Assembly (NCBI RefSeq): GCF_001704275.1
Contig: NZ_CP011533.1
Location: forward strand, 7,378,001 to 7,442,000
Direction of reading: 5' to 3'
Source of the DNA: Streptomyces noursei ATCC 11455
Lineage (GTDB): Bacteria; Actinomycetota; Actinomycetes; Streptomycetales; Streptomycetaceae
Length of the DNA stretch: 64,000 nucleotides
Under the pieces are notes generated by a model, which was given only the letters and a program-made list of their open reading frames with translations, made no database searches and was not told the DNA's origin. Positions 12,451 through 47,233 of the stretch are shown here, piece after piece (position 1 is the first letter of the stretch; each line of letters begins with the position of its first letter). The translations under genes and the position numbers were made by a program.

Positions 12451-12489
12451 CGCACCCGCCCACCCCTTCCACAGGGGTGGGCGGGTGCG
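12451..12489 (+). terminator. Terminator of the metNIQ operon
   Basis: A perfect 17-bp stem (12451-12467 with 12473-12489) with a 5-nt loop TCCAC, starting 72 nt after the metQ stop. Confidence 0.85.
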
Positions 12490-43902: not shown

Positions 43903-44825
43903 TGCGGATCGACACCGACAAGCTGACGGACGGGCTGTACGGCCTGGGCTGGAGCACCGTCAAGCGGCTGCCCGAAGGGGTCGCGGTGCAGCTCGGGCGG
44001 CAGCTCGCCGACCTGGCCTGGCGACGCCGCGGCAAGGGCGTCCAGCGCCTGGAGTCCAACCTCGCCCGGGTCGTCCCGGATGCCTCCCCGGAGCGACTGG
44101 CCGAGCTCTCCCGGGCCGGGATGCGGTCGTACATGCGCTACTGGATGGAGTCCTTCCGGCTGCCGGTGTGGAGCCCGGAGCGGATAAAGGCCGGTTTCAC
44201 CCCCGAGGACGTGCACCACCTGGAGGACGGCCTCAAGAGCGATCGCGGGGTGATCCTGGCGCTGCCCCACATGGGCAACTACGACCTCGCCGGCGTCTGG
44301 GTCACCACCAAGCTCGACACCCCGTTCACCACCGTCGCCGAGCGCCTCAAGCCGGAGTCCCTCTACGACCGGTTCGTCGCCTACCGCGAGGGACTGGGCA
44401 TGGAGGTGCTGCCGCACACCGGCGGCGCCGCGTTCGGCACGCTGGCCCGGCGGCTGCGCGCCGGCGGCCTGGTCTGCCTGGTCGCCGACCGCGACCTGTC
44501 CAGCTCCGGGATACCGGTGAAGTTCTTCGGCGAGGAGGCGAAGATGCCGGCCGGGCCCGCGATGCTGGCCCTCCAGACCGGCGCGATGCTGCTGCCGGTC
44601 ACCCTCTGGTACGACGACACCCCCATCATGCGCGGCCGGGTCCACCCGGAGATCGAGGTGCCGCAGAACGGCACCCGCACCGAGAAGGCCGCCCTGATGA
44701 CCCAGGCGCTGGCCGACGCCTTCGCCTCCGGCATCGCCGACCACCCCACGGACTGGCACATGCTCCAGCGCCTGTGGCTCGCCGATCTGGAGCCGCGCGG
44801 CGACGCCGGAACGGAGCCCGCGTGA
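43902..44825 (+). CDS. patA: Phosphatidylinositol mannoside acyltransferase (PatA/HtrB-like)
   Basis: Acylates the mannose of PIM1/PIM2, completing the anchor of lipomannan-type glycolipids. A 307-aa HtrB/LpxL-like acyltransferase: LALPHMGNYDLAGVW carries the H-x4-D catalytic pair, CLVADRDLSSSGIPVKFFGEEAKMP is the second block, and ALQTGAMLLPVTLWYDD the third. The first 20 residues lack a clear TM helix, so it is probably a peripheral membrane protein. Its stop overlaps the next GTG (GTGA at 44822-44825). Position between PgsA and PimA fixes the identity better than the sequence alone. Confidence 0.88.
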   Translation: MRIDTDKLTDGLYGLGWSTVKRLPEGVAVQLGRQLADLAWRRRGKGVQRLESNLARVVPDASPERLAELSRAGMRSYMRYWMESFRLPVWSPERIKAGFTPEDVHHLEDGLKSDRGVILALPHMGNYDLAGVWVTTKLDTPFTTVAERLKPESLYDRFVAYREGLGMEVLPHTGGAAFGTLARRLRAGGLVCLVADRDLSSSGIPVKFFGEEAKMPAGPAMLALQTGAMLLPVTLWYDDTPIMRGRVHPEIEVPQNGTRTEKAALMTQALADAFASGIADHPTDWHMLQRLWLADLEPRGDAGTEPA

Positions 44826-45988
44826 AGATCGGCATCGTCTGCCCGTACTCCTGGGACGTCCCCGGCGGCGTGCAGTTCCACATCCGCGACCTGGCCGAGC
44901 ACCTGATCCGCCTCGGCCACGAGGTCTCCGTCCTGGCCCCCGCCGACGACGAGACCCCGCTGCCGCCCTACGTCGTCCCGGCCGGCCGCGCCGTCCCCGT
45001 GCCCTACAACGGCTCGGTCGCCCGCCTCAACTTCGGCTTCCTCTCCGCCGCCCGGGTCCGCCGCTGGCTCCAGAACGGCGCCTTCGACGTCATCCACATC
45101 CACGAGCCGGCCTCGCCGTCCCTGGGCCTGCTCGCCTGCTGGGCGGCGCAGGGCCCGATCGTGGCGACGTTCCACACCTCCAACCCGCGCTCCCGCGCCA
45201 TGATCGCCGCGTACCCGATCCTCCAGCCCGCCCTGGAGAAGATCAGCGCTCGGATCGCGGTCAGCGAGTACGCCCGCCGGACCCTGGTCGAGCACCTCGG
45301 CGGCGACGCGGTGGTGATCCCCAACGGCGTGGACGTGGACTTCTTCGCCCGGGCCGAGCCCCGGCCGGAATGGCAGGGCCGCACCATCGGCTTCATCGGC
45401 CGGATCGACGAGCCCCGCAAGGGCCTGCCGGTCCTCATGAAGGCACTGCCCGCGATCCTCGCCGCGGTCCCCGACGCCCGACTGCTGGTCGCCGGCCGCG
45501 GTGACCAGGACGAGGCCGTCGCCGGCCTGCCCGCCGAACTGCGCTCCCGTGTCGAGTTCCTCGGCATGGTCTCCGACGAGGACAAGGCACGACTGCTGCG
45601 CAGCGTGGACGTCTATGTCGCGCCCAACACGGGCGGCGAGTCCTTCGGCATCATCCTCGTGGAGGCGATGTCCGCCGGGGCCCCCGTACTGGCCAGCGAC
45701 CTCGACGCGTTCGCCCAGGTCCTGGACCAGGGCGAGGCCGGCGAACTCTTCGCCAACGAGGACGCGGAGGCGCTGGCCGCCGCGGCCGTCCGCCTGCTGC
45801 ACGCCCCTGACCGCCTCACCGAACTCCGCGAACGCGGCACCAAGCACGTCCGCCGCTTCGACTGGACCACGGTCGGCGCCGACATCCTCGCCGTCTACGA
45901 GACGGTGACGGCGGGCGCCTCGGCCGTGGCGACCGACGAACGAGTGGGAGCCCGGGGCCGATCCGCTGCGCGGCGCGGGTCCGCCTGA
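44822..45988 (+). CDS. pimA: GDP-mannose-dependent phosphatidylinositol mannosyltransferase
   Basis: Adds the first mannose to phosphatidylinositol. A 388-aa GT-B glycosyltransferase (GT4): VCPYSWDVPGGVQFHIRDLAEHLIR at the N-terminus, IHIHEPASPSLGLL, the His of TFHTS, VIPNGVDVDFF, FIGRIDEPRKGLPVL (Arg-Lys), and the E-x7-E motif ESFGIILVEAMSAGAPV. It is the last gene of the pgsA-patA-pimA operon. The final 11 codons and the TGA (45986-45988) lie inside the 43-bp terminal inverted repeat of the downstream repeat element, so the tail (RGRSAARRGSA) is repeat-derived and ends in a stop supplied by the repeat. The catalytic domains are not affected. Confidence 0.9.
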   Translation: MKIGIVCPYSWDVPGGVQFHIRDLAEHLIRLGHEVSVLAPADDETPLPPYVVPAGRAVPVPYNGSVARLNFGFLSAARVRRWLQNGAFDVIHIHEPASPSLGLLACWAAQGPIVATFHTSNPRSRAMIAAYPILQPALEKISARIAVSEYARRTLVEHLGGDAVVIPNGVDVDFFARAEPRPEWQGRTIGFIGRIDEPRKGLPVLMKALPAILAAVPDARLLVAGRGDQDEAVAGLPAELRSRVEFLGMVSDEDKARLLRSVDVYVAPNTGGESFGIILVEAMSAGAPVLASDLDAFAQVLDQGEAGELFANEDAEALAAAAVRLLHAPDRLTELRERGTKHVRRFDWTTVGADILAVYETVTAGASAVATDERVGARGRSAARRGSA

Positions 45989-46084
45989 CGGCGGGGTCTT
46001 GCGTTGTCCGCTGCGCGGGGCGGATCCGCTGCGCGGGGCTGGGCCGTTGTGCGTTGTCCGCTGCGCGGGGCTGTTGGGTGCGGT

Positions 46085-46155
46085 GACGGGCCTGCGGGGG
46101 TGGTGTGCAGGACTGCTGCGCTTTACGTCCTGCACACCACCCCCTCCGGCCCGTC
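46085..46155. repeat. Hairpin 1 of the paired hairpins
   Basis: A perfect 18-bp stem (46096-46113 with 46127-46144), extended beyond a 3-nt internal loop by GACGGGCC/GGCCCGTC (46085-46092 with 46148-46155). The 13-nt loop is TGCTGCGCTTTAC (46114-46126), exactly complementary to the loop of hairpin 2. Confidence 0.85.
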
Positions 46156-46300
46156 CCCTCCCGTGGGTGGGTGGGAAAGACAGGTGCGCGACCGTTGATG
46201 CCGGTGGTCCGGTGACGGTCACGACTCGACGACGAACCCGCAGGGGACCACGGGCCGGCACCCTCACTCATCGTTTTCATGACCACTCACGGGAGGGGAC

Positions 46301-46369
46301 GGGGCTGCGGGGTGGGGGTTGTCCGGACGTAAAGCGCAGCAGTCCGGACAACCCCCACCCCGCAGCCCC
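46301..46369. repeat. Hairpin 2 of the paired hairpins
   Basis: A perfect 28-bp stem (46301-46328 with 46342-46369). The 13-nt loop is GTAAAGCGCAGCA (46329-46341), the reverse complement of the loop of hairpin 1. The four bases flanking each loop (GGAC / GTCC) are the same in both hairpins, while the outer stems differ but stay paired. Confidence 0.85.
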
Positions 46370-46388
46370 GGCACCGCTGCCGAACCGC

Positions 46389-46580
46389 CCCGCGCAGCGG
46401 ACCCGCAACCACCCCTGCCGTCAGGCGGACAGGCGCAGCGGCACCGTCCCGCGCAGCGGACCCGCAACCACCCCCGCCGTCAGGCGGACAGGCACAGCGG
46501 CACCACCCCGCCGTCAGGCGGCCCCGCACCACCCCGCCGTCAGGGCGGCCCCGCACCACCCCGCCGTCAGGCGGCCCCGC
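46389..46580. repeat. Tandem direct repeats: 59 bp x2 and 26-27 bp x3
   Basis: 46389-46447 and 46448-46506 differ at only four positions. 46507-46532, 46533-46559 and 46560-46580 (the last merging into the right terminal repeat) repeat the CCCGCCGTCAGGCGG-type unit contained in the longer repeats. No unique spacers separate them, so this is not a CRISPR array. Confidence 0.8.
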
Positions 46581-46687
46581 CCCGCGCAGCGGATTCGCCC
46601 CGCCGCAGGCGCAAAACGCGAACCCCTACGGCGGGAACGCCGACTACGTGCGAGGAAGCCAGCCGCAAGGCGATAACGTGACCCCGC

Positions 46688-47233
46688 GTGACCACGTTTA
46701 TCTGGATCGCCGCCGCGATCGTCCTCATCGGTGTCTACCTGAGCTGGACGGCCGGTCGGCTCGACCGACTGCATGCGCGCATCGACGCGGCGAAGGCGGC
46801 GCTGGACGCCCAGTTGCTGCGGCGGGCCTCGGTCGCGCAGGAGGTGGGCACGTCGGGGGTGCTGGATCCGGCCGCGTCGATCGTGTTGTACCAGGCCGCG
46901 CACGAGGCCCGGCAGGCGGCGGAGGATCATCGCGAGGTCGCGGAGAGCGAGCTGAGCCAGGCGCTGCGTGCGGTCTTCGAGGACGAGGCGCAGGTGGAGG
47001 CGGTGCGGGAGGCCCCGGGCGGGGAGCGGACGGTCGCGGAGCTGATCGCGGCGGTGCGCCGGGTGCCGATGGCGCGCCGGTTCCACAACGACGCCGTGCG
47101 GGCCGCGCGGGCGGTCCGTCGGCACCGGTTGGTCCGCTATCTGCGGCTGGCCGGCCATGCGCCGTTCCCGATGGCCTTCGAGATGGACGACGAGCCGCCG
47201 GCCGTCCTGGACGACCGCTCGGGCGGGAACTGA
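46688..47233 (+). CDS. LemA-like membrane protein
   Basis: A 181-aa protein with one N-terminal TM helix ([19 protein letters not shown]) and then long amphipathic helices: [25 protein letters not shown] and [18 protein letters not shown]. The tract [20 protein letters not shown] resembles the LemA signature (F-Y-N-D-A-V). Family function is unclear; some members relate to membrane stress. GTG 46688 has no Shine-Dalgarno; TAACGT at 46674-46679 is a possible -10 eight nt before it, suggesting a leaderless start. It lies directly after the repeat element. Confidence 0.7.

Follow-up and report, generated by a model that had tools for sequence, protein, structure and literature searches.

A dispersed palindromic repeat of Streptomyces noursei with a little-varying hairpin tip and stems that apparently covary through DNA copying

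Introduction

Several described systems resemble the element reported here. REPINs (REP-BIMEs) are dispersed, mostly extragenic, inverted pairs of palindromic units and, in REPIN/RAYT systems, carry a conserved GTAG/CGTC-type tag at the palindrome end. MITEs are short, non-coding inverted repeats present in many copies. Palindromes II and III of Streptomyces telomeres are described as GCA-loop hairpins closed by a sheared G:A pair on the 3′ strand and bound by Tap (PMC4513846). Quasipalindromes corrected by template switching show matched changes in their arms and inversion of the spacer; in yeast genes, template switching makes the two arms of an inverted repeat alike and turns the spacer round (PMC8604942).

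The element described here shares with REPINs their arrangement and placement but differs in its size (~0.7 kb), in its 60–70 nt hairpins with a 13-nt, little-varying loop, in its nested mirrored arms, in stems that change freely, and in the absence of a Y1 transposase from 14 of 15 carriers. Its likeness to MITEs extends to short, multicopy, non-coding inverted repeats, but its inner units differ at persistent sites rather than appearing as simple insertions, and a search with PF01797 found no parent transposase. Like Streptomyces telomeres, it bears GNA caps mostly in the 3′ half of each strand; unlike them, it is multicopy and internal (1.17–7.55 Mb of 9.8 Mb) rather than placed at replicon ends, and a functional link between its GNA caps and the Tap-bound telomere hairpins would be speculation. 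It shares matched arm changes and spacer inversion with quasipalindromes, but is an entire family of dispersed copies, in which the tip is conserved and sites apparently exchange sequence. The family is real, unusual and, as far as the open-access literature searched, undescribed: 15-mers around the loop are not mentioned there, and the consulted parts of the open-access literature on Streptomyces repeats, MITEs, REPINs and gene conversion describe no such family.

Results

Two inverted hairpins form the centre of a nested palindromic element

The starting point was a pair of hairpins in a 64,000-nt stretch of the S. noursei ATCC 11455 genome (the window; contig NZ_CP011533.1, 7,378,001–7,442,000). 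Hairpin H1 (46085–46155, plus strand) has 27 of 29 stem pairs, comprising 18 uninterrupted pairs followed by mismatches at stem positions 19 and 21, and a 13-nt loop, TGCTGCGCTTTAC (46114–46126, plus strand). Hairpin H2 (46301–46369, minus strand), inverted with respect to H1, has 29 uninterrupted stem pairs and a loop, GTAAAGCGCAGCA (46329–46341, minus strand), that reads GTAAA-GC(GCA)GC-A on the plus strand and contains a d(GCGNAGC) mini-hairpin. The initial annotation had described the 13-nt loops as exact reverse complements, which is borne out at these positions, and the stems as fully paired, which holds for H2 and fails for H1 at the two mismatches. Its reading of H1 and H2 as two inverted copies of one structured unit also stands, and many other copies carry the same loop on different paired stems.

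The window holds four perfect hairpins (arm ≥18 bp, loop 4–18 nt), two of which are H1 and H2, and none occurs in any of 10 dinucleotide shuffles of the window. The other two lie at 12468 and 38886, and each has a 5-nt loop. Single-stranded DNA folds of either strand of H1 or H2 have z scores of −9.2 to −12.2 (0 of 200 shuffles as good), and a 341-nt RNA fold has a z score of −13.8 (0 of 100 shuffles as good).

The interval first delimited, 46085–46369, contains real hairpins but is only the centre of a larger element. A mirrored-repeat search defines a nested inverted repeat of ~0.7 kb at ~45959–46672, with ends set by eye and no strand assigned, an extent supported by the own-genome copies L003, L007 and L009, which share 545–635 bp at 89–92% identity. 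The left outer arm (45963–46070, plus strand) consists of small palindromes with TN(N)C loops on this strand, comprising CCGCTGCGCGG at 45963, 46008, 46026 and 46058 and CCGCCTGACGGCGG at 45981. The core between the hairpins (46156–46300, unstranded) is an imperfect inverted repeat with arms at 46134–46170 and 46283–46319, and the right outer arm (46370–46672, minus strand) carries the small palindromes CCGCGCAGCGG, CCGCCGTCAGGCGG, CGCCGCAGGCGC and CCCCTACGGCGGG, which mirror the left arm. Within the 64 kb, the small palindromes CCGCTGCGCGG, CCGCCTGACGG(CGG), CGCCTGCGGCG and CCCGCCGTAGGGG are confined almost wholly to the surroundings of the hairpins, in one orientation to their left and in the other to their right; the sole outliers are a CCGCTGCGCGG (3943) and a GCCTGCGGCG (50923).

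The element is non-coding; mechanical ORFs cross the stretch, and we claim no conserved ORF. It sits between a gene for a glycosyltransferase of family 4/group 1, assigned by Pfam (44756–45988, start approximate, plus strand), and a 181-aa ORF with no Pfam match (46688–47233, plus strand) that has a match in every genome searched (41 of 41 and 29 of 29). The left end of the element overlaps the 3′ end of the glycosyltransferase gene. The encoded C-terminus is RRWLAKD-like in several relatives and RSAARRGSA in the window copy, and from this comparison with relatives the C-terminus here (45950–45988) appears to have been overwritten by the outer arm of the element.

The same intergenic gap was located in other species at 29 loci representing 26 distinct genomes, the own genome excluded. 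At least one large hairpin is present in 11 of the 26; both hairpins are collapsed to a GGAC-TTC-GTCC-like triloop hairpin in two and outer or partial arms alone are present in four, both classes having been read by eye; the gap holds nothing comparable in seven and meets a contig edge in two.

The element belongs to a dispersed family carried by a minority of Streptomyces

Searching for the loop motif with paired arms, as the initial annotation had proposed, returned many further copies, both in the own genome and in other Streptomyces. In the own genome (9.8 Mb, one contig) the exact 13-mer loop occurs 15 times (backwards control, 0), and 21 places match with up to three mismatches over 21 nt (backwards control, 1), the matches spanning 1.17 to 7.55 Mb. 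Differences in the six inexact matches are confined to two loop positions, namely the third T of TTTAC and the N of GNA, and further copies have 14-nt or shorter loops. Across the genus, 15 of 392 genomes, including the own genome, carry the motif with at most one mismatch, with 1–50 matches each and none in the backwards control. A scan of named genomes returned at least 120 stretches; among the 80 matches listed, 79 are from Streptomyces and one is from an Acidobacteriia MAG, the last not being a real hairpin (stem of just 3 bp). The element is carried by a minority of Streptomyces.

Wide spread beyond the genus was rejected: the exact pattern with two free positions was found in 2 of 296 genomes of a class sample and 1 of 396 of a phylum sample, two overlapping samples that both include the own genome. 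The own genome is the only carrier in the phylum sample, and the one other carrier in the class sample is genome G482, from another actinobacterial family, which has a single copy and is the one carrier among three genomes of its family. That copy (locus L318, 1500–1540) consists of one long hairpin, just past a likely gene end, whose loop and GGAC/GTCC are those of the family but whose stem is unrelated; the G482 genome is 84% complete, and a misplaced contig is possible. A phage or plasmid origin was likewise rejected, with no match in phages, no exact match in viral contigs, and one plasmid record with eight places. The latter is a 2.8-Mb replicon listed as a plasmid (Streptomyces sp. BHT-5-2, NZ_CP081497.1), whose best element-like place, at 580099–580585, matches 70% of the query at 73% identity.

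Paired hairpins nearly always lie in plus-then-minus order, mostly 85–280 bp apart, with the reverse order at locus L054; many loci show one hairpin, some owing to a contig edge. Genes lying between hairpins comprise a glyoxalase-like gene, a short-chain dehydrogenase (SDR) gene and one Cas1-encoding provirus. The glyoxalase-like gene lies between inverted hairpins spaced 711 bp apart (L037, 1500–2230), and the SDR gene between inverted hairpins ~1 kb apart (L277, 1500–2570); S. noursei A-2-1 also has the SDR gene there but has lost the right hairpin. The provirus, also in S. noursei A-2-1 (L317, from the same genome as L061, 2232000–2250500), is an insert of ~16 kb in the core of one element copy, with, by eye, terminal inverted repeats of ~100 bp and a ~15-bp duplication, CCCACTCACGGGAGG. 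It encodes Cas1 (PF01867, 104 bits) and a polymerase with a viral type B family match below the Pfam cut-off and matches to two PHROG DNA polymerase families. Toil-like proviruses that encode Cas1 have already been described from S. noursei (PMC5894146); the position of a provirus inside a palindromic element may be new.

Stem arms covary almost perfectly, with few G-U pairs

From 196 unique contexts we obtained 94 distinct 16-bp arm pairs, reduced to 85 after nine contexts with fewer than 12 of 16 pairs were dropped ahead of pair counting. In these 85 arm pairs, Watson–Crick pairs occupy 1328 of 1360 cells, G-T pairs two and other combinations 30, where these counts, and the mismatch and comparison counts that follow, are drawn from related sequences and are not independent events. 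Random re-pairing of arms lowers the mean from 15.6 to 10.1 pairs of 16. In an alignment of the 84 distinct arm pairs with 13-nt loops, 97.8% of cells are paired, as compared with 66.7% after shuffling, and, among its 1344 cells, both sides are changed in 349 and one side, by a standard change, in one. Comparison of hairpins that differ at exactly one stem pair gave 53 two-sided and 30 one-sided differences (83 comparisons), the two-sided ones including C-G to G-C (9) and A-T to T-A (6).

RNA helices drift through G-U. A small control, the stems of 10 distinct tRNAs from the same loci, has G-U in 13 of 219 pairs. The covariation suggested in the initial annotation is present and strong, but its value as a sign of compensatory evolution in RNA is undercut by the single one-sided standard change in 1344 cells: with almost no G-U and almost no one-sided change, compensation in an RNA helix is unsupported, and copying of one arm from the other in DNA is expected to look this way. 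We rejected RNA-helix compensation on the missing G-U. From the pattern of changes, the covariation apparently arises from DNA copying and not from selection on RNA, and a folded-DNA or cruciform reading would fit it better. Non-pairs comprise 14 C-A/A-C and two G-T/T-G, an asymmetry hinting that it is chiefly the complementary strand on which wobble would be tolerated.

Kissing between the two loops, also proposed at the outset, is not maintained. The loops are exactly complementary in 50 of 63 distinct hairpin pairs, and the 13 in which they are not indicate that complementarity follows from the inversion of the two hairpins and is not kept for kissing. In a search of Rfam, the sole matches in the window at gathering score are seven tRNAs, and the 59 matches at E ≤ 1 all fall below gathering score.

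Sites persist while inner units change

Ten own-genome sites and the window site were matched to their orthologues in S. noursei A-2-1 (G408). Longer alignments of flanks between the two genomes are 91–99% identical, and 97–99% at most sites, and the flanks of sites with near-identical inner units are inherited vertically. Within the own genome, the inner units (~350 bp) of L003, L007 and L009 are 97–99% alike and those of the window site and L015 are 97% alike; within A-2-1, those of L003 and L009 are 98% alike. By comparison, orthologous inner units of the two genomes are 81% (L003), 80% (L009) and 86% (L002) identical. At the window site, the fourth comparable pair, identity is 89% inverted and 74% direct, so that the unit lies in opposite orientation, which may reflect inversion or replacement. 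Homogenisation is not general, since no other own-genome copy comes closer than 88% to own-genome L002. At site L003, the left outer arm goes with the site but the inner unit belongs to a paralogous type, and in the alignment the switch falls near repeated CCGCTGCGCGG palindromes.

Differences between the own genome and A-2-1 look mostly like collapse. At least one large hairpin is kept in A-2-1 at seven of the 10 sites and at least remnants at all 10, L005, L006 and L007 having remnants alone (an outer palindrome at L007) and L011 having lost one hairpin along with the 100 bp that separate CCCCAC repeats. When eight A-2-1 sites were compared in the other direction, the own genome proved to lack one half-element, which has no clear duplication. 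At none of the sites compared has an element been cleanly inserted into unrelated sequence and flanked by a target-site duplication. Sites thus persist and inner units change; true mobility, or transposition, is unproven.

The loop is little-varying and presents a GNA tip

Because the loop pattern was the criterion by which most loci were chosen, loop constancy among them is in part by construction. A loop-blind scan downstream of 139 unique anchors, in which a pair can contribute two anchors, found a partner hairpin (arm of at least 14) in 90 and none in 49. The loops of the 90 partners comprise 74 that fit the selection pattern, six close variants (the same loop placed on a GGC stem in three, a 14-nt loop in three) and 10 other loops. 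An earlier loop-blind scan, with arms of at least 17, found 180 hairpins with the two 13-nt loops, three with 14-nt loops, and otherwise single loops. Variants outside the main pattern are TGCTGCGCGTTAC, GTAGAGCGAAGCA and a 12-nt loop.

Read on the opposite strand, the loop is GTAAA-GC-GNA-GC-A. Its two common variants (130 T and 61 G in the 196 contexts) differ at the N of GNA, and the five contexts with 14-nt loops give GNNA. DNA mini-hairpins in which a GNA or GNNA loop is closed by two G-C pairs are extraordinarily stable, GCGAAGC having a Tm of 78 °C (PMC4686876). In 223 unique outer arms, palindromes with stems of at least 4 have TN(N)C loops 547 times, GN(N)A loops 18 times and other loops 420 times. 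With stems of at least 5, TN(N)C and GN(N)A occur 192 and 10 times (9.9 and 2.8 in shuffled arms), and other loops, at 144, are no commoner than in shuffles (150). Counted as distinct sequences, TN(N)C and GN(N)A caps number 52 and 15, or 34 and 9 with stems of at least 5. The TN(N)C excess places GNA caps mostly on the strand opposite TGCT..., that is, in the 3′ half of each strand, and the small arm palindromes share the polarity of the main loop tip. The tip GGAC-GTAAA-GC(GNA)GC-A-GTCC is most likely the recognition site of a putative hairpin-DNA-binding protein, and a dedicated tip-binding protein is plausible but unproven.

Gene context and candidate machinery

Gene context was called with a crude gene caller in loci L052–L171 of at least 5 kb. 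The 71 classified places comprise 36 convergent, 28 tandem, two divergent and five inside a called ORF, as compared with 154 convergent, 341 tandem and 105 divergent neighbouring gene pairs in the same loci. In the own genome the same caller gave 10 tandem, five convergent, one divergent and one inside an ORF (n = 17); it misreads the window copy as divergent, the true arrangement being tandem.

Two protein families were searched, PF01797 (Y1 transposase) and PF13558 (SbcC Walker B domain). PF01797 is present in one of 15 motif carriers (G194, which has a single hairpin match) and in two of 14 other genomes, and has no match in the remaining 14 carriers, including all with two or more hairpin matches; the search control was positive in five of 14 control genomes. 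Loss of SbcC as the reason for survival of long palindromes was rejected, PF13558 being over cut-off in all 35 genomes (19 carriers and 16 others).

Discussion

We favour, with moderate confidence, the interpretation that the element is a DNA-level, recombining extragenic palindromic repeat with a conserved hairpin tip. Its basis is the combination of many copies, a little-varying loop, stem changes on both sides, near-identity within a genome, opposite orientation at an orthologous site, collapse, and cap polarity. In the mechanism we propose, the H1-core-H2 unit would be active while folded as single-stranded DNA in the course of replication. Within each hairpin, template switching would keep the arms complementary and could turn the spacer round. 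Copies would recombine, by gene conversion or by copying of H1-core-H2, and so replace units from site to site, with exchange points near CCGCTGCGCGG palindromes; and a putative hairpin-DNA-binding protein would, most likely, recognise the GGAC-GTAAA-GC(GNA)GC-A-GTCC tip. Considerations that count against this interpretation are the lack of any clean insertion with a target-site duplication among the sites compared, the selection bias in loops, the loop variants, the 49 of 139 anchors with no partner hairpin and the 10 whose partner has another loop, the uneven homogenisation, the derivation of pair and mismatch counts from related sequences, and the one-sided differences in 30 of 83 comparisons.

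A more far-reaching version, which we hold only tentatively, is that the element represents a new class of bacterial element, in which a putative Tap-like protein or recombinase would recognise d(GCGNAGC)-tipped single-stranded DNA and drive copying, inversion and replacement of H1-core-H2 between fixed palindromic landing sites, as a Y1-independent counterpart of REPINs.

Conversely, the family could be a passive by-product that arises where GC-rich intergenic palindromes undergo ordinary template switching during replication and RecA-type gene conversion. It would then have neither a function nor a dedicated protein, and the loop would be kept only through shared ancestry and exchange. No special enzyme is required for matched changes, opposite orientation or collapse, given the mechanism set out in PMC8604942; Y1, the sole transposase family searched, is missing from 14 of 15 carriers; and the selection bias in loops weakens the case for constraint. 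We nonetheless regard this account as rather doubtful, in view of the 80 of 90 loop-blind partners that have the family loop or a close variant while stems differ, the same loop on an unrelated stem in another actinobacterial family (G482), and the one-sided cap polarity.

Selection by the host for a 3′-end element (a terminator, a stabiliser of mRNA 3′ ends or a topological, gyrase-type site at gene ends) would account for the convergent arrangement of 36 of 71 places against the background of neighbouring gene pairs, and for at least one large hairpin in the window gap of 11 of 26 genomes. It is unlikely, because the own genome shows no convergent excess, the window gap holds nothing comparable in seven of 26 genomes and merely collapsed or partial forms in six, and the near absence of G-U speaks against selection on RNA pairing. 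A structured RNA with kissing loops has in its favour the exact loop complements in 50 of 63 pairs and the very stable fold; the broken complementarity in the other 13, the origin of complementarity from inversion alone, the scarcity of G-U and the Rfam result, with no match at gathering score except the window tRNAs, make it very improbable. Least credible is a REPIN-type element moved by a RAYT/IS200-like Y1 transposase, which would share the two inverted palindromic units, the multicopy state and the mostly extragenic placement (inside a called ORF at just 5 of 71 and 1 of 17 places, many loci being one-hairpin) but which, with PF01797 in one of 15 carriers, is largely excluded for proteins that PF01797 detects.

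Near-perfect "compensatory" covariation that probably derives from DNA copying, as in this natural example, is a warning for covariation-based RNA discovery, and such covariation can be told apart by its missing G-U intermediates. The family also makes it possible to test, in Streptomyces, how ultra-stable GNA DNA mini-hairpins may be connected with palindrome instability and with concerted evolution, and its defined loop offers a bait for the candidate binding protein.
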